From positions 682,001 to 746,000 of the forward strand of contig NZ_CP046457.1 in assembly GCF_009734445.1 (NCBI RefSeq): DNA of 64,000 nucleotides, read 5' to 3'. Shown here piece after piece: positions 34,335 through 51,163 of the stretch (position 1 is the first letter of the stretch; each line of letters opens with the position of its first letter). A program made the translations under genes and the position numbers. The notes beneath the pieces are model-generated. The model did no database searches. It was given only the letters and a program-made list of their open reading frames with translations, and was not told the origin of the DNA. This DNA comes from Candidatus Syntrophocurvum alkaliphilum (GTDB lineage Bacteria; Bacillota; Syntrophomonadia; Syntrophomonadales; Syntrophomonadaceae).

Positions 34335-34819
34335 TATTTAGACCACTCCTTATTATTATATTCTTCATTATTTATTACATTGATTTTGTTTTCTTTTAAA
34401 AGAGCAGTTGTTACTCCATCGCCTTTAATTAACTTACCACTAAATGATCCATCATAAACGTTTCCCATCCCACATGAAGGGCTTCTACTTTTAAAAATAG
34501 CGGTATCTATGTCTAATAACTTTGCTATATTTAGTGTTTCGTATGCACCCTTAATAAATTTAGCAGTAACATCTTTTGTATCCTTGGTAATAACCTTAGT
34601 TTTATTATTATATAAAACATCAATACCGGTACCGTTTTTAATTTCACTAGGTGTTCTAGGTGTAGTCAGCCCACCAAGCTGCTCAGGGCATACAGGTATA
34701 ACTTCTCCCTTTTTAAAAAGTTCAACAAACAAGGGATGGTAATTACTTTTACCATCATATTTGCAATTTATTCCACATAAGCAAGCGCTAATAAGTTTTA
34801 TAGTACTCACTCCCTTCAT
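34334..34819 (-). CDS. DUF523/TudS-type thiouracil desulfidase-like protein
   Basis: 161 residues. Cys in SACLCGINCKYDG, VIPVCPEQLGGL and RSPSCGMG are the three conserved sites; in TudS such cysteines hold a [4Fe-4S] cluster that removes sulfur from thiouracil or thiouridine. It is the first gene of a two-gene operon with a thiouridine-synthase-like PP-loop protein. Start uncertain: ATG at 34819 has only a weak site, while AAGGGAG lies just inside. Enzyme activity is inferred from the family. Confidence 0.78.
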   Translation of the reverse strand: MKGVSTIKLISACLCGINCKYDGKSNYHPLFVELFKKGEVIPVCPEQLGGLTTPRTPSEIKNGTGIDVLYNNKTKVITKDTKDVTAKFIKGAYETLNIAKLLDIDTAIFKSRSPSCGMGNVYDGSFSGKLIKGDGVTTALLKENKINVINNEEYNNKEWSK

Positions 34820-34939
34820 TACAACTCTTTTTGCGCAAATATATCTATTAGATTTATTTAAATTTTATCTTAATCATAATAGCAAAGAAGTAAAGGTTTT
34901 CATATTATAGGATACCATAATATTTAGGGTGGAGATATT

Positions 34940-36289
34940 GTGTATGGATTTACTATGGTTAATGTAGCTGCAAATCCTAAAGGAAAAGAAAAAATTATAC
35001 AATTTGATAAAAAAACTGCAGAAAAATTAAAATTAAAAAGTGGTGATGAAGTGCTTTTTTGTTTTGGTCAACAAAAAAGTAGCTTAATTGTTGAAATACG
35101 AAACACAAAAAGTAATATTAACATTTTTTTAACCAACAAAGATATTAAATATTTTAAATTAATTGTTCCTAAAAAATATGGCATAAATGTTAAAGGTAAT
35201 CAAATAAAACTAGGTCCGGTTGTAGGCGTAATGGCTGATTTATTTAAACAAAAGGCTAAGCCATTTGGTCCACAAAGTTTTTTTATCAAACAAATGATTA
35301 CTAATGGTGATAACATAGGTGTATTTTGTTTTGCTTTTTGTCCTTATAATATAAATTTAGATAAAAAAATTATTAGAGGCTACACATATAAAAACAATAA
35401 GTGGTTTAAAAGTACTTTCCCACTGCCTGATGTTATATTTCCAAGAGAAAGAGGTTATTCTCATACTAATTTAAAAGTAAGAAGCAAGCTTGAACAACTC
35501 GGATGTTACTTTTTGAACCCTCCCCTAATAGGAAAATGGGAAACTTATCAAATTTTATCAAAAAATCCAATGTTGTTAAAATATTTACCTGAAACAGAAC
35601 TAATTAATAACTTTAACCAAATAAATAAAATGGTTAAAAAGCATGGTGCAGTTTATATTAAGCCAGTTAAAGGTTCACAAGGTAGGAATATTATTAGATT
35701 AAGAAAAAAAAGAAATTCATCTTATGAATATAAATATGAGATTAACAATCATACAACTACTGGTAGTGCTATTGACATCCATCATTTAAGGCGGCAACTT
35801 AGTTCTATTATGGGTAACAAAAGATTTATTGTCCAAAAAGAAATAGATTTATTAAGAAATCGTGACCATATTATAGATCTTAGAATATTTGTCCAAAAAG
35901 ATCATACAGGAAAATGGAGCATTACAGGGAAGGCTTGTAGAGTTGGAAGACTAGGTTCAATAACTAGTAATATTTCATCGGGTGGAAAAGGTTATAAAGT
36001 GGAAAGTATGCTAATGAGACATTTTCCAGATAAAGAATTAAGGGAAAAAATATTGCATGATATTAACTATGTATCTATAGAATCTGTTAAATCTTTAGAG
36101 CGAGCAATAGGTAAAATAGGTGAAATGGGTGTTGATATAGGTGTAGATAAAAAAGGCAAAGTATGGTTTATTGAAGCAAATATGAGGCCAGCTAGACACG
36201 TATTTAATCTAATTGGAGAAACAGATACAAGACTACAATCTGTTATCAAACCCCTTTTATACAGCAGATACTTAGCAGGATTTAGGTAG
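34940..36289 (+). CDS. YheC/YheD-type ATP-grasp protein, copy 1
   Basis: 449 residues. An N-terminal beta-rich domain (to about 90) leads to a linker and an ATP-grasp domain: YIKPVKGSQGRNIIRL, DLRIFVQKDHTGKWSITGKACRVG and MGVDIGVDKKGKVWFIEANMRP, the last with the Mg-binding E-x-N. Bacillus relatives are linked with the spore coat. The substrate is unknown; the family should form carboxylate-amine bonds. GTG start after TGGAG. Thirteen bases before copy 2. Confidence 0.85.
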   Translation: MYGFTMVNVAANPKGKEKIIQFDKKTAEKLKLKSGDEVLFCFGQQKSSLIVEIRNTKSNINIFLTNKDIKYFKLIVPKKYGINVKGNQIKLGPVVGVMADLFKQKAKPFGPQSFFIKQMITNGDNIGVFCFAFCPYNINLDKKIIRGYTYKNNKWFKSTFPLPDVIFPRERGYSHTNLKVRSKLEQLGCYFLNPPLIGKWETYQILSKNPMLLKYLPETELINNFNQINKMVKKHGAVYIKPVKGSQGRNIIRLRKKRNSSYEYKYEINNHTTTGSAIDIHHLRRQLSSIMGNKRFIVQKEIDLLRNRDHIIDLRIFVQKDHTGKWSITGKACRVGRLGSITSNISSGGKGYKVESMLMRHFPDKELREKILHDINYVSIESVKSLERAIGKIGEMGVDIGVDKKGKVWFIEANMRPARHVFNLIGETDTRLQSVIKPLLYSRYLAGFR

Positions 36290-36302
36290 AGGGGGTAGAA
36301 GA

Positions 36303-37646
36303 ATGAACTTAATAGGAAAATTATTTATATCACCACATCTTAGAGATTCACTTGAAATACCGATACAGTCAGAAATAAATGTAAGAGTAGGTAGCTTGAT
36401 AGTCAGAACCAGGTTAATTATACGTGAAGGAAACAAAAAATCATATATGTTATCACCAGAACTCAATAAAGCTTTATTATTAAAAACACGTAAAAAATAT
36501 AAGATAAGATATGATCACCAAAATAATATAGTTCATATAGGTCCTACCATAGGTATATTAGCTATTAGCCTTCCTAACAAAAATGAGTTTGATCCTAAAG
36601 GCGTTCAAGCTGAATTAATTTACTTAAGCAATATAGCAAAAAATTATCTGGGTCAAGTATATATTTTTACCCCAAATTCAATTGACTGGTCATCTAAAAC
36701 TACTAAAGGTTATGTATATAAATATATTAGACCACATTATGGAGTATGGACTTCCGCAAGATACCCTTTGCCAGATGTTGTATATGATAGAATTACTACT
36801 AGAAGAAGTGAGTCTAAAACTTCAATTCAAAAAACAAAGGATAATTTAATGAGTTTACCTTATCTTAAATATTTTAATCCATCATTTTTAGATAAGTGGA
36901 AAGTACATCAAGTATTAGATTCTAATCCTCAGTTAAATGATTATTTACCAGAAACGTATTCATTTAGTAAGGAAAACATTGAGTCCATGATACAAAAATA
37001 CTCTACTTTATACTTGAAGCCTATTCATGGTAGTTTAGGTAAAGGAATAATAAAGCTTACTAAAGATAAAAGTGGTAAATTACATTATATAATTCATAGA
37101 ACTGGACGAATTAGAGGTAAAGCAGACAATATTGAAGAATTCATTAAAAAGACTAAAAAATCCCATGGGAATAGACCATATATTGTTCAGCAAGGAATAA
37201 ATCTTGCTAAATATAAAGGGGCTCCTTTTGACATAAGGATTATATTTCAAAAGAATAGTAAGGGAAATTGGCAAATTAGCAAAAAATTTGCGAGAGTTGC
37301 GCCTAGGGGTAGTAGTATATCAAACTTAAGTAGTGGAGGAAAAGTACAAACAACTAAAAAAACTTTTAGATATCTTTTTAATAAAAAAGATACAATTGAA
37401 GCAAGAAACAAAGAAATAAAAAATATGTGTTTAAAAATAGCCAAAACTATTGAAAACTCATATGATGGTACTTTTGGCGAGCTTGGTTTAGATATAGGTA
37501 TAGATATTAAGGGGCATCCTTGGTTAATAGAAGTTAATTCTAAACCTAGAAAAACTACGGAAACTGTATTTTCAAAAATCATAGTAAAAAATACATTTAA
37601 GAGACCGATAGAGTTTAGCATATATCTAGCTGGATTTTGTAAATAA
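36303..37646 (+). CDS. YheC/YheD-type ATP-grasp protein, copy 2
   Basis: 447 residues, same build as copy 1 (YLKPIHGSLGKGIIKL, DIRIIFQKNSKGNWQISKKFARVAPRG, LGLDIGIDIKGHPWLIEVNSKPR) but clearly diverged, so an old duplication. AGAGGGGGT before the ATG. Tail terminator at 37653-37685. Two unlike copies side by side suggest two successive ligations or two substrates. Confidence 0.85.
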   Translation: MNLIGKLFISPHLRDSLEIPIQSEINVRVGSLIVRTRLIIREGNKKSYMLSPELNKALLLKTRKKYKIRYDHQNNIVHIGPTIGILAISLPNKNEFDPKGVQAELIYLSNIAKNYLGQVYIFTPNSIDWSSKTTKGYVYKYIRPHYGVWTSARYPLPDVVYDRITTRRSESKTSIQKTKDNLMSLPYLKYFNPSFLDKWKVHQVLDSNPQLNDYLPETYSFSKENIESMIQKYSTLYLKPIHGSLGKGIIKLTKDKSGKLHYIIHRTGRIRGKADNIEEFIKKTKKSHGNRPYIVQQGINLAKYKGAPFDIRIIFQKNSKGNWQISKKFARVAPRGSSISNLSSGGKVQTTKKTFRYLFNKKDTIEARNKEIKNMCLKIAKTIENSYDGTFGELGLDIGIDIKGHPWLIEVNSKPRKTTETVFSKIIVKNTFKRPIEFSIYLAGFCK

Positions 37647-45933: not shown

Positions 45934-45966
45934 AATACCGACTAAGTTATTAGTCGGTATTTTTTG
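45934..45966 (+). terminator. rho-independent terminator
   Basis: AATACCGACTA pairs with TAGTCGGTATT and ends in Ts. Closes trkAH. Confidence 0.9.
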
Positions 45967-46043
45967 TTTTTTCAGATATATGGCACCGACATTTCTCATT
46001 TTTCATATTATACATTAAGAAATGAATAGAGGAGTTGCAATAA

Positions 46044-47201
46044 ATGATAAATGAAAATGATAGAGATAATCTTCGTGATAAAAAAAGAAAAGAGACTCCT
46101 TTAGTAGGTGTTATAACAGCAAGAAAAAAAAGTGAGAAACGTTCTAATCAATTTCCATCAAAAAGAGAAGGTAGAGTCTTTAGAGAAATGGCTTTAGAGG
46201 GTTATAAAAAAGGTATAACCATCTATTTTTTTTATCCTGATGGTGTTAAATGGAAAGAGAAAAAAATTAATGGATATATATATAAGCCTAAAAGCAAGCC
46301 ATCTTGGGTGAAAAAAGTAATGCCATTACCTGATATTGTTTATAACCGTATTGTTTACCGTAGTCTTGAAAACAAAAAAGAAGTAAAAGAAATATTAAAA
46401 AAATTTGAAGCAAATCCAAATATTTTTCTTTTTAATACAAGGTTTTTAAATAAGTTAGAGTTACACGATGCCTTGATAAAACATGAGACTAGTAAACAGT
46501 TTATACCTGAAACTAATCGCTTTAGTTATGAAAATTTAAAAAAATACTTGCATTCATACAACGAGGTTTTTATTAAACCTAAAAACAATAGTACTGGTAA
46601 AGGCATTATAAAAGTTATTAAAGCTAACAGGGGTTACTATTATTCATTTGCAGAAAGCAAAAAAAACAAATGGTATAGTAGCCCAACAATTGAAAGGCTT
46701 TATAGAAGTTTAAGGTTTAAAGTACCCAATAAATCAAATTATCTAATTCAAATGGGGATACCACTTCTAAAAATGAATGGTCGTATTTTTGATCTTAGAG
46801 CTCAAGTTCAAAAAAATGGTAATGGACAATGGGTTTTAACTGGAATTGCGGTTAGATTAGCTGCGTTAGGTAAATTTGTTACTCACATACCCAATGGTGG
46901 TAGAGCAGCTGAATTTAATAAGGTAATAAAGGAAATTTACAAAAATGAACTAGCCAAAGAAGAAAGAGTAATTAATGAATTAAAAATTATTACCAAACAA
47001 ATACCTAGAATTCTGGAAAATGAACTGCAAATTAATTTAGGAGTACTGTCATTAGATCTTGGTATTGATACTCAAGGTAAGATGTGGATTATTGAAATAA
47101 ATTCAAAACCAGCAAGTTTTGATGAAAAAGATATAAGATTTCGTCACTTAAATTATTTAACAGACTACTTTTTATACATTAACAGTAATAAAGAGGACTG
47201 A
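46044..47201 (+). CDS. YheC/YheD-type ATP-grasp protein, copy 3
   Basis: 385 residues, shorter than copies 1 and 2 because it lacks most of the N-terminal beta domain. ATP-grasp blocks: FIKPKNNSTGKGIIKV, DLRAQVQKNGNGQWVLTGIAVRLA and LSLDLGIDTQGKMWIIEINSKPA. GAGGAG before the ATG. It is separated by three bases from the amidoligase gene, so the two surely act together; ATP-grasp plus amidoligase pairs have been proposed to build or modify peptides. Confidence 0.85.
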   Translation: MINENDRDNLRDKKRKETPLVGVITARKKSEKRSNQFPSKREGRVFREMALEGYKKGITIYFFYPDGVKWKEKKINGYIYKPKSKPSWVKKVMPLPDIVYNRIVYRSLENKKEVKEILKKFEANPNIFLFNTRFLNKLELHDALIKHETSKQFIPETNRFSYENLKKYLHSYNEVFIKPKNNSTGKGIIKVIKANRGYYYSFAESKKNKWYSSPTIERLYRSLRFKVPNKSNYLIQMGIPLLKMNGRIFDLRAQVQKNGNGQWVLTGIAVRLAALGKFVTHIPNGGRAAEFNKVIKEIYKNELAKEERVINELKIITKQIPRILENELQINLGVLSLDLGIDTQGKMWIIEINSKPASFDEKDIRFRHLNYLTDYFLYINSNKED

Positions 47202-47204
47202 TAT

Positions 47205-48824
47205 ATGATGAATTTAGGTATATATTATAAAAAAAATAAGATAGGTAATAAAATATATGATAAATTAAGTGAGAGCATAAGTGCGATTGAATACCAAGAA
47301 TTTAAAATTAAAAATCAAATATATTTAAATATTCAATTAAAAAAAGAGGGATCTAATTTAAAAAGAGTACTAAATACACCTAAAGCAATAGTAAATACTA
47401 TTTCAAGGGATACACTTTCTGAAATTCTTCAACATAATAATGTGGCTCAAATTAAGGGAAGAGAGTCTATTAATCGTACTTACGAAATATTAATCTTTGA
47501 TTTATCAGTAATCTCTATTAGGCAAATTACTCATACTAGAAATAAAAAAACAGTTAAATATGCAAGTAAAAAAGATGCTAAAAAGGCAGTAGAAATAGCA
47601 TTAAGAGCTCTATACTTGACTGGTCTTGATTTTGGTATGGTAAAGGTGGTATTTACCTCTAGGCATGCATATAAAATAAGGACCATTAATCCGTCACCTA
47701 TTATTAGAGAACGAGATTTTAGTTTGTTTATTAAAAAAATTAAAAGGCTTTATGATAATGAAGGCACAGCAAAAAATGCAAATATAAAGATGGGCGCTGA
47801 TCCTGAATTTATGTTAATAAATGCTAATAGTGGCAGATTAATAGCAGCATCAAAATATTTTCCGAGGGAAGGTACTGTTGGTTGTGATAGCATTAGGATA
47901 CCAAATCGTCAACAACGTCCAATTGCTGAAATAAGGCCAGCCCCTGAAGAATCTCCATTAGAATTACTTGACAACATAAAGAAAGCATTAAATAATGCTA
48001 ATAAAATGGCTCCCTATAAAAATGTAAAATGGATTGCAGGAAGCCTACCTGTGAGTGGATATCCAATTGGTGGGCATATTCATTTTAGCAAAATTAAATC
48101 TAATTATAGCATATTAAGAGCTTTAGATAATTATATTTGCATTCCTATTTTTTTAATTGAAAACCCAAGAACAGCAACAATACGTAGAAAAAAATATGGT
48201 TTTTTATTTGACTATAGAGAAAAAGATTATGGGGGGTTTGAGTATAGAACCCCTGGAAGTTGGTTAGTATCACAAGAAGTTGCTACAGCTATATTATGTT
48301 TAGCAAAAGTTGTAGCTAGTCATTATTACGAATTAAGAAGGAATTTCTTTTTAAATGTAGAAGCGCATAAAGCTTTTTATTCTGGCAATCAGAACTATTT
48401 TAAACCTATATTTAGAAAATTATGGAGTGATATTGAACAAACCAGTTCATATATTTTCTATGAAAAAGAACTAAAAACCCTATATACTATGATTTTTAAC
48501 AATGATTTATGGAATGAAAAAGATGATTTAAGAAAAGCTTGGGAAGTTTCTTGGAATAATAAAAAATCTTCTAGTAACAAAAATAAATCCAGAAAAACAT
48601 CAACTACATCTACTAGATCCAATTCATCTAGAAACACAAGAAGAAGACCAAGGAGTGTTACTACTCGTACCAATAGTAGAAGCACAAATAGATCATCAAA
48701 TACTGGTAATACAAACAGTAGTCAAAATCAAGAACAGAATAATAGAAACCGGAGTACTGTTACCCAAGGAAGGATAACAGTATCCGGTCCAACAATTCAT
48801 ACACAACCATTAAGATTTTATTAG
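47205..48824 (+). CDS. amidoligase (phiEco32 type-2 like) with low-complexity tail
   Basis: 539 residues. From about 195, GADPEFMLIN, VGCDSIR, RPIAEIRPAPEESPLELL, GYPIGGHIHFS and DYGGFEYRTPGSWL match the glutamine-synthetase-fold COOH-NH2 ligase type 2 family. The first 190 residues are not recognised. The end (about 452-530) is almost only Ser, Thr, Asn, Arg and Gln, unlike any enzyme domain; it could be a self-substrate, an anchor or a matrix-binding part. Coupled to the ATP-grasp gene before it, and its stop overlaps that of the convergent M14-like gene. Confidence 0.78.
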   Translation: MMNLGIYYKKNKIGNKIYDKLSESISAIEYQEFKIKNQIYLNIQLKKEGSNLKRVLNTPKAIVNTISRDTLSEILQHNNVAQIKGRESINRTYEILIFDLSVISIRQITHTRNKKTVKYASKKDAKKAVEIALRALYLTGLDFGMVKVVFTSRHAYKIRTINPSPIIRERDFSLFIKKIKRLYDNEGTAKNANIKMGADPEFMLINANSGRLIAASKYFPREGTVGCDSIRIPNRQQRPIAEIRPAPEESPLELLDNIKKALNNANKMAPYKNVKWIAGSLPVSGYPIGGHIHFSKIKSNYSILRALDNYICIPIFLIENPRTATIRRKKYGFLFDYREKDYGGFEYRTPGSWLVSQEVATAILCLAKVVASHYYELRRNFFLNVEAHKAFYSGNQNYFKPIFRKLWSDIEQTSSYIFYEKELKTLYTMIFNNDLWNEKDDLRKAWEVSWNNKKSSSNKNKSRKTSTTSTRSNSSRNTRRRPRSVTTRTNSRSTNRSSNTGNTNSSQNQEQNNRNRSTVTQGRITVSGPTIHTQPLRFY

Positions 48825-51163
48825 CGCATACCAGCTTCTTCTAAGAGAATATCAGTAGCTATTAGTTGATTATCTATTCTAGTAGATAAATCCTGTTTCA
48901 TACATGACTCAAAGATGAAAGAATTTACTCCTAGATGTTGTCCAGCACTTCTAGCTAAACTTCCTTGTACTGGATAGGTTAATAAAGTAAATCTTTCTAG
49001 AGAACGAGTTGCGTTTGTATTTAATTCACTAACCATTCTTTCTGCAACAGGTGTCATTTCAGAGTTAGGATAATGAATAACAGTTTGGCCAACTGAATTA
49101 GTTGATGGATTCCTATGAAAATCAAAACCTTCATGCATATCCATTAACCAATCAACATCATAATCTTTTACTACATCGTATATTGCACTAGCTAATACAT
49201 GGCTTGGGTTTCCTGTTCTAGTAGTTGGGAATTCTCTATTTAGGTCACCTTCACCTGGAGCAGAGCGTCTATTAGCTTCAATAGCTAATTTATTTGCTTC
49301 AGGTATTACTAATAAAGTACCTTTATTAGGAGAATATTCTTTAACTTTGTTTGCAGCATGATATCCTGCAATTTCACTACCATGTATACCACCAACAATC
49401 AGAACAGTTGGACCGGGAACTCCACTATCTATAATATAAAGTTCAGTAGCATATTTAGTACCCGGTGCAAGAATTTCAACCTCTCTAGTTTCGCTAATTT
49501 CTGGATCGGAAACTTCAATCATATTTAATTGATGAAGAAGCATAGTAACAGTTCTTATTTGATAGTCAATTCTAGTATCTAAATCATCTTTAAGAGTACT
49601 TTCAAATATAAAAGAATTAACTCCTAAAATTTCAGCTGTACTTCTTGTAAGACTACCATGAGCAGGAAATCTTAATACTGAAAAATGCTCAGATGAATTA
49701 GTAATTGATCTGTTCAATGCAGCATTAGCTCTTTCTACAAATCCTTGGGTTTCTCCTACTGGTTGATAAATAAAAGTTTGTCCAAAAGCTCTATCACTTG
49801 AAGAAATATGATAATCATGTCCTTCATGCATGTCCATAAGCCAATCAACATCATATTCTTCGATAACATCAAAAATTTCTTGAGCTAAGAAATGATCAGC
49901 ATTTCCATTATCACTTCTAGGAAATACACGGTTCATATCAGGCTCTCCGGAAACAGTTCTTTGATTAATGTCAATTGCAGGCTTATTAGCCTCTGGTAAA
50001 ACTAATAAAGTGCCTCTTTCAATTTCAAAATCTTTAACTTTTTCGGCAGTCTTATAACCAGCAACACCATGACCATGAATACCACCAACAACCATAACAG
50101 TTGGGCCTGGTACTTCACCTTCGATAACATACATCTCAGTTTCATAGTCTGTGTCTCTAGCTAAAGTAAAAGTATTATAGTTTTCTTCAACTGGCTTTTC
50201 TTCAATTTCTTTCATATTAATTTCTTGAAGAAGCATAGTAACAGTTCTTATTTGGTAGTCAATTCTAGTATCTAAATCATCTTTAAGAGTACTTTCAAAT
50301 ATAAAAGAATTAACTCCTAAAATTTCAGCTGTACTTCTAGCAAGACTACCATGAGCAGGAAATCTTAATACTGAAAAATGCTCTGATGAACGTAATATAG
50401 TTCTGTTAAGCTCATCATTAGCTTTTTCAACAAACTCTTGGGTTTCACCTACAGGTTGATAAATAAAAGTTTGTCCAAAAGCTCTATCACTTGAAGAAAT
50501 GTGATAATCATGTCCTTCATGCATGTCCATAAGCCAATCAACATCATATTCTTCAATCACATCAAAAATCTCTTGAGCTAAGAAATGATCAGCATTTTCA
50601 TTATCACTTTTAGGAAACACACGATTCATATCAGGCTCTCCTGAAACAGTTCGTTGATTAATGTCAATTGCAGGCTTATTAGCTTCTGGTAAAACTAATA
50701 AAGTACCTCTTTCAATTTCAAAATCTTTAACTTTTTCGGCAGCTTTATAACCAGCAACACCATGACCATGAATACCTCCAACTACCATAACAGTTGGACC
50801 TGGTACTTCACTTTCGATGACATACATCTCTGTTTCATAGTCTGTGTCTCTAGCTAAAACTATCTTATTGGGATCTTCTAGTTCTGGGTTTACTATGGGA
50901 TCTATCAAACTACTGGGAATAGTAAGATTATAATCTGAACCACTTAAGGTTAGAAATGATTCAAATGTTGATCCATTAAAATTAAATTCGATAGGAACTT
51001 CTTTAGAATTGTCATTGTCACCTATGGTAATGTCAAATGTACCAGAATAGGTGTCAGTTGCTGCTTTTACTTCCTCCAATCCAACAAAAGCAACAAAAAC
51101 AAGAATAATTGCTAGTATTACGGATGAGAGCATACATTTACCTTGATGTCTTACTTTTTGCAT
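48821..51163 (-). CDS. secreted protein with three tandem M14/AstE-like domains
   Basis: 780 residues with signal peptide (cut after about 35, VKAA) and a beta-rich lead region (36-98). Three related domains follow: about 100-320, 333-550 and 560-780. The third has GGIHGSEIAGY and MDMHEG, the H-x-x-E and H zinc ligands of M14/succinylglutamate-desuccinylase-like enzymes. Domains 1 and 2, nearly identical to each other, read GGIHGHGVAGY, so the Glu ligand is replaced. Only domain 3 looks fully catalytic. Outer-surface carboxypeptidase or amidase is likely. AAGGGAAGG upstream of the ATG. Confidence 0.8.
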   Translation of the reverse strand: MQKVRHQGKCMLSSVILAIILVFVAFVGLEEVKAATDTYSGTFDITIGDNDNSKEVPIEFNFNGSTFESFLTLSGSDYNLTIPSSLIDPIVNPELEDPNKIVLARDTDYETEMYVIESEVPGPTVMVVGGIHGHGVAGYKAAEKVKDFEIERGTLLVLPEANKPAIDINQRTVSGEPDMNRVFPKSDNENADHFLAQEIFDVIEEYDVDWLMDMHEGHDYHISSSDRAFGQTFIYQPVGETQEFVEKANDELNRTILRSSEHFSVLRFPAHGSLARSTAEILGVNSFIFESTLKDDLDTRIDYQIRTVTMLLQEINMKEIEEKPVEENYNTFTLARDTDYETEMYVIEGEVPGPTVMVVGGIHGHGVAGYKTAEKVKDFEIERGTLLVLPEANKPAIDINQRTVSGEPDMNRVFPRSDNGNADHFLAQEIFDVIEEYDVDWLMDMHEGHDYHISSSDRAFGQTFIYQPVGETQGFVERANAALNRSITNSSEHFSVLRFPAHGSLTRSTAEILGVNSFIFESTLKDDLDTRIDYQIRTVTMLLHQLNMIEVSDPEISETREVEILAPGTKYATELYIIDSGVPGPTVLIVGGIHGSEIAGYHAANKVKEYSPNKGTLLVIPEANKLAIEANRRSAPGEGDLNREFPTTRTGNPSHVLASAIYDVVKDYDVDWLMDMHEGFDFHRNPSTNSVGQTVIHYPNSEMTPVAERMVSELNTNATRSLERFTLLTYPVQGSLARSAGQHLGVNSFIFESCMKQDLSTRIDNQLIATDILLEEAGMR
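49460..50870. repeat. tandem duplication inside the M14-like gene
   Basis: The DNA for domain 2 (about 49520-50160) and domain 1 (about 50210-50860) is nearly identical over about 650 bases, including long exact runs, while domain 3 is diverged. This points to a recent duplication and a risk of recombination or assembly collapse. Confidence 0.75.

Follow-up and report, generated by a model that had tools for sequence, protein, structure and literature searches.

Two adjacent ligase genes of Candidatus Syntrophocurvum alkaliphilum B(2M), a member of the Syntrophomonadaceae that comes from soda lakes and degrades butyrate syntrophically (PMC7005122), probably belong to a mother-cell system of peptide ligases that works on the spore coat late in sporulation; the timing, the location and the amide product are what we infer from the features given here. 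The genes lie in the window, i.e., the 64,000-nucleotide stretch of this genome that was analysed. Most named relatives that came up in a protein search are Syntrophomonadaceae as well. Beyond what an earlier note on this DNA had described, a sigma-K-type promoter precedes the pair, the amidoligase contains a degenerate ATP-grasp domain, and a conserved gene for an M14-type peptidase runs convergently.

34940..36289, +, second YheC/D ATP-grasp (PF14398 4.2e-81; catalytic residues conserved)
36303..37646, +, third YheC/D ATP-grasp (PF14398 6.4e-83; catalytic residues conserved)
45934..45961, +, intrinsic terminator after trkH (12-bp stem, then T run)
45983-46012, +, sigma-K-type promoter, gCACC-N16-CATATTATA (family-wide pattern CAC-N17-CATAnnAT)
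46044..47201, +, YheC/D ATP-grasp ligase, 385 aa (PF14398 2.6e-69, invariant columns, model)
47205..48824, +, amidoligase PF14395, 539 aa, in three parts (ORF, Pfam match, AlphaFold model)
47208..47762, +, ATP-grasp-fold domain probably without ATP lid, residues 2-186 (structural matches, motif columns)
47781..48548, +, predicted carboxylate-amine ligase catalytic domain, residues 193-448 (fold matches, invariant residues)
48570..48821, +, disordered Ser/Thr/Asn/Arg tail, residues 456-539 (pLDDT < 50, composition)
48821..51163, -, M14-type (AstE/AspA, M99) amidase/carboxypeptidase, three tandem repeats (PF24827, PF17033)

The ligase pair and its neighbourhood

The open reading frames at 46044-47201 and 47205-48824 are separated by three bases, and both their coordinates and their Pfam matches agree with the earlier description of an ATP-grasp gene followed by an amidoligase gene. 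A terminator search upstream of the pair found one terminator against 0.1 in shuffles, and its position at 45934-45961 behind the trkA-trkH-like genes suggests that the pair is its own transcription unit. An adjacent ATP-grasp/amidoligase pair was present in every Syntrophomonadaceae locus recovered, which, together with a tail in 29 of 29 complete amidoligases, points to more than chance. The two further ATP-grasp copies that the note had placed at 34940-37646 were likewise recovered by PF14398 and are its only other matches in the genome. Between them and the pair lie genes for an HtrA-type protease, phosphofructokinase, a hydroxyacyl-CoA dehydrogenase, a PH-domain protein and YchF as well as the trk-like genes, and the same gene order, without the trk genes, was found in genome G020 (loci L071 and L072). 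In other families the ATP-grasps and the amidoligase form one tight cluster, suggesting that the 34940-37646 locus and the pair are parts of one system. At locus L045 an amidoligase and an ATP-grasp are fused in a protein of 924 residues (PF14395 at 212-464, PF14398 at 657-918). Neither enzyme was found in family f3 of the same order, i.e., both were lost together.

Three side observations concern these genes elsewhere. A 907-aa protein at L063 (4277-7000, minus strand) has a partial PF14395 match ahead of a YheC/D ATP-grasp and may be another fusion that has decayed. In G020, the 34940 ATP-grasp has an orthologue (L071, 8964-11848) that is interrupted by a DDE transposase gene and is thus probably dead there. 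Contigs 5 and 42 of genome G050 hold eight YheC/D ATP-grasp matches but no PF14395, and may represent a form of the cluster that does without the amidoligase.

The ATP-grasp ligase matches PF14398 with 233.8 bits (gathering threshold 26.8). Across 18 aligned ATP-grasps, K178, S183, G185, R252, D338, E351 and N353 are invariant, G187 is nearly so, and the catalytic residues are kept in all 18; the lysine, the glycine-rich loop and the D/E/N metal ligands of the fold are present. In its structure model (pLDDT 90), the closest structures are ArgX/LysX, RimK (Z 22.7 against ArgX/RimK), glutathione synthetase and TTLL6, which add amino acids to peptide or protein carboxylates. Judged by alignment and model, this partner enzyme is complete and intact.

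The AlphaFold model of the amidoligase (pLDDT 81.7) consists of two folded parts and a tail. PF14395 covers residues 196-448 with its full profile (1-254 of 254, 6.2e-104, 347.2 bits vs. a gathering threshold of 25). PDB sequence searches returned no significant match; by fold, the catalytic domain is related to YbdK (Z 17.9), plant glutamate-cysteine ligase (16.0) and Dop/PafA (15.8/15.7). It contains the carboxylate/histidine/arginine active site of the GCS superfamily, and 12 residues (D199, E201, D228, E242, R244, H291, H293, R327, R328, R338, E346 and R348) are invariant in 59 of 59 amidoligases. The proposal that both genes encode amide-forming families was thereby strengthened by intact active sites (59/59 amidoligases and 18/18 aligned ATP-grasps), and the active-site loss named in the note as grounds for rejection did not occur in either enzyme.

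Residues 2-186 of the amidoligase resemble RimK (Z 15.3 over 169 residues) as well as PsnB and the D-Ala-D-Ala ligase Ddl (Z about 14 for both). The length of 186 residues, compared with about 290 in RimK, and the alignment ranges suggest that the ATP-binding lid is missing here. One can still recognise the motif GLDxGxVxV...xINPxP, and the metal-ligand D and E are kept in 8 and 5 of 59 proteins, respectively. An hhalign comparison with the partner ATP-grasps gave E 0.019 and a probability of 2.4%; the fold comparison is clear. Based on these motif columns and the model, the domain is read as a pseudo-ATP-grasp that would serve binding.

The architecture can be placed beside three known systems. 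Like GshF, the amidoligase combines a GCS-type ligase with an ATP-grasp fold in a single polypeptide (matches 3ln7 and 3ln6); however, the order is reversed, the ATP-grasp-fold part has about 186 residues and no lid, and most metal ligands are gone, so the bifunctional arrangement of a GCS domain followed by an active ATP-grasp is not found. PafA, which attaches protein to lysines, shares with Dop a catalytic-domain fold like that of the amidoligase (Z about 15.7) at about 10% identity. The protein also matches the full domain of the phiEco32-like COOH-NH2 ligase-type 2 family (PF14395) with the same catalytic signature; unlike the phiEco32-like members, the window gene is chromosomal and family-conserved, with a lidless ATP-grasp-fold domain ahead of the ligase and a long disordered tail behind it. 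PF14395 had no match in the control genomes, B. subtilis among them.

The convergent gene encodes an M14-type amidase with three stretches each of PF24827 (2e-38) and PF17033 (4.8e-31) and an N-terminal hydrophobic segment resembling a signal peptide. Such a gene lies within about 20 bases of the amidoligase in nearly all family loci and in the sister family f2, and near it in several further families. The sigma-K-type pattern described below is absent upstream of the M14-type gene. In the window protein, repeats 1 and 2 read HGHG and the HxxE zinc motif stands in repeat 3 only, nearly all relatives having HxxE; zinc binding has therefore probably been lost in two repeats.

Sigma-K-type promoter and linkage to CotE

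The classical form of a sigma-K promoter is AC-N17-CATAnnnTA. The DNA ahead of the ATP-grasp gene was readable in 28 family members, and all 28 have CAC-N17-CATAnnAT there, in most cases at a distance of 37-65 bases from the start (within or across an over-long ORF call at L009 and L020), with invariant box bases and mostly variable spacer columns. Even the looser AC-N16..18-CATAnnnT occurred in dinucleotide shuffles at a mean of only 1.05 of 28 (largest value 5). AC-N17-CATAnnnT has ten matches in the window, and this is the one that could be placed just upstream of a same-strand gene start. In B. subtilis, promoters read by sigma K and by sigma E have the -10 box in common and are told apart by base four of the -35, a C in the former and a T in the latter (PMC517825). 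The -35 C, the common -10 box and the fixed gap of sigma-K regulon promoters are all present at the pair, and the sigma-E pattern ATA-N12..16-CATAYAnT is found in 0 of the 28 upstream regions, which argues for sigma K rather than sigma E. No sigma-70-type promoter was found in the intergenic region ahead of the pair, and the genome has a sigma-K gene above the NCBIfam curated cut-off. The search for sigma-E and sigma-K boxes, proposed earlier as a check, thus came out in favour of sigma K (28/28 vs. 0/28), and the promoter pattern supports mother-cell expression of the pair as predicted from sequence.

Upstream of the 34940 gene, the CATATTATA box is present and AC-N17 is absent. As a side observation, the region ahead of this second ATP-grasp pair (34779-34939) has AGCAAAGAAG and TTTCATATTATA in common with G020, i.e., a -10 identical to the sigma-K-type box and a different -35.

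The window ATP-grasps belong to the same PF14398 family as YheC and YheD of B. subtilis, which Pfam describes as predicted for spore-wall proteins. Both are products of sporulation genes (PMC517825, PMC7911427). However, yheC and yheD are members of the sigma-E regulon, up-regulated by SpoIIID (PMC517825), whereas the window pair has a sigma-K-type promoter. YheD is a known spore-surface protein, which encases the spore, forms a shell and shows strong self-interaction (PMC7911427).

A survey of 299 genomes of the phylum found PF14395 in 37, CotE in 40 and both in 23 (Fisher p 1.6e-14, phylogeny ignored). In all 23 genomes holding both, the genes for CotE and the amidoligase share a contig and are at most 7 kb apart, often in an operon-like run; in nine loci, where CotE was identified by Pfam, it adjoins the ligases or shares one run with them. 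At locus L077 of family f14, genes for two CotE paralogues stand in one same-strand series with those for four ATP-grasps and the amidoligase. The sigma-K-type pattern also precedes CotE in 14 of 17 upstream regions, against 0.70 in the block shuffle. The spore context that the note had suggested is backed by this linkage and by the promoter. CotE is absent from the window genome and its family, so that the coat link there rests on homology (the relatives and YheC/D) and on the pair's own promoter. SpoIVA is present in the window genome and in all PF14395 genomes but one (36 of 37), an assembly of 61% completeness; since 250 of the 299 genomes have SpoIVA, this co-occurrence is weak by itself (Fisher 0.008). 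Three of the four f3 genomes have SpoIVA and neither ligase enzyme, showing that sporulation genes can be retained without the system.

Other proteins were noticed at these clusters. In two families, the ligase/CotE cluster ends with a small protein (L054 1849-2343, L058 10890-11360, L064 10447-10944); those of L054 and L058 are GNAT acetyltransferases by Pfam, and that of L064 looks alike by its sequence start. In family f14, a Mur-ligase-like protein (L055 3863-5266, by Pfam; L077 14644-16080) adjoins the CotE/ATP-grasp/amidoligase cluster.

The tail and alternative readings

The simple-sequence tail described earlier is indeed Ser/Thr/Asn/Arg-rich and disordered, although it has 84 residues (456-539) rather than 75. 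S, T, N and R make up 71% of it, pLDDT is below 50 throughout, and it is net positive with one E, no D and three K. Tails of 57-126 residues were found in 29/29 complete Syntrophomonadaceae amidoligases, with S 18%, R 14%, N and T 9% each, and D+E about 4%. A comparison of tails between species, also suggested in the note, showed that composition is mostly conserved (L041, L032 and L088 being less basic), whereas length and sequence vary, the latter freely. Such long tails are limited to the CotE-less Syntrophomonadaceae; the amidoligase ends 2-28 residues past the domain in CotE-linked families and 28-29 residues past it in the CotE-less sister family f2. Long tails in one clade are a single event, from which a swap of tail for CotE is not provable. 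Modification of the Ser/Arg tail by a CotH kinase was weighed and rejected: the window genome has CotH, but of 15 sampled family genomes only 5 do, while the tail is universal, so CotH cannot be its general reason.

Among the alternatives, it is unlikely that the ligases are chiefly structural proteins that polymerise in the coat, as proposed for YheD, with their chemistry being secondary. The YheD shell and its strong self-interaction (PMC7911427) would agree with such a role, as would the degeneration of one ATP-grasp domain of the system; against it, the catalytic residues are invariant in 59/59 amidoligases and 18/18 aligned ATP-grasps. Less likely again is a pathway outside the coat that makes a small molecule or secreted peptide, e.g., a gamma-glutamyl metabolite or a graspetide-like peptide. 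The fold relatives do include glutathione synthetase, gamma-glutamylcysteine ligase and the graspetide ligase PsnB, and PF14395 also occurs in phages, by its family name; however, the sigma-K-type promoter and the CotE linkage point elsewhere, and a search limited to ORFs of at least 60 aa found no precursor candidate between or beside the pair. Least likely of all is that the tail itself is the substrate of the ATP-grasp or the amidoligase, an idea of the earlier note for which the tail's presence in every complete Syntrophomonadaceae member and a post-hoc C-terminal pattern GRI...IRR (15/29 vs. 0.45 in shuffles) could be cited, but enzymes of these kinds link carboxylates to amines, for which 84 freely varying positions holding a single acidic residue and three lysines make a poor substrate, and other families with the same catalytic residues have short or no tails. 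By its composition, the tail is probably not a substrate; its anchoring to a spore layer, the note's other suggestion, is likelier, and so is a role in targeting or in binding an acidic partner.

A probable coat-directed ligase system

The preferred reading, a late mother-cell ligase system acting on the coat, is supported by the promoter, the sigma-K gene, SpoIVA, the CotE linkage, the L045 fusion, the invariant residues and the sporulation regulon of yheC/yheD. It is weakened by the sigma-E rather than sigma-K control of B. subtilis yheC/D, by the 34940 gene without AC-N17, by the CotE-less window genome and by family f3. Judging from the promoter and the sigma-K gene, sigma K would turn on the pair after engulfment. 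The PF14395 enzyme would then activate a carboxylate with ATP and form an amide, like gamma-glutamyl ligases and PafA, after which the YheC/D ATP-grasps would ligate or extend, like RimK, LysX and glutathione synthetase; fold and intact catalytic residues suggest both steps. The acceptor would most likely be a coat protein or coat-bound peptide, and the lidless N-terminal domain of the amidoligase probably binds the acceptor or a partner, not ATP. CotE probably recruits the ligases in the families that have it; in the Syntrophomonadaceae, where CotE is absent, this task might, speculatively, fall to the basic disordered tail, and the convergent M14-type amidase might conceivably trim or reverse the product. 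Possible but doubtful is the fuller proposal that CotE delivers the ligases to the spore surface, that the tail targets the coat in its absence, and that the product is a new spore-specific, amide-linked modification of peptide or protein kind.

Linked amidoligase/ATP-grasp ligases were reportedly predicted to make peptides in a comparative-genomics study by Iyer et al. in 2009 (Mol BioSyst 5:1636). As restated in PMC4431377, linked ligases of these superfamilies, as at the window pair, were predicted to carry out successive peptide ligations. The general idea is thus not new. None of the open papers searched was found to mention the linkage to CotE, the fixed promoter of sigma-K type, the ATP-grasp domain without a lid or the tail/CotE pattern; as evidence of novelty this is weak. 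With relatives of YheD tied to an amidoligase, CotE and a sigma-K-type promoter, the question becomes which spore-coat amide bond is made, and on what. The CotE-linked copies in larger, Paenibacillus-like genomes provide candidates that might be cultured and tested to answer it.
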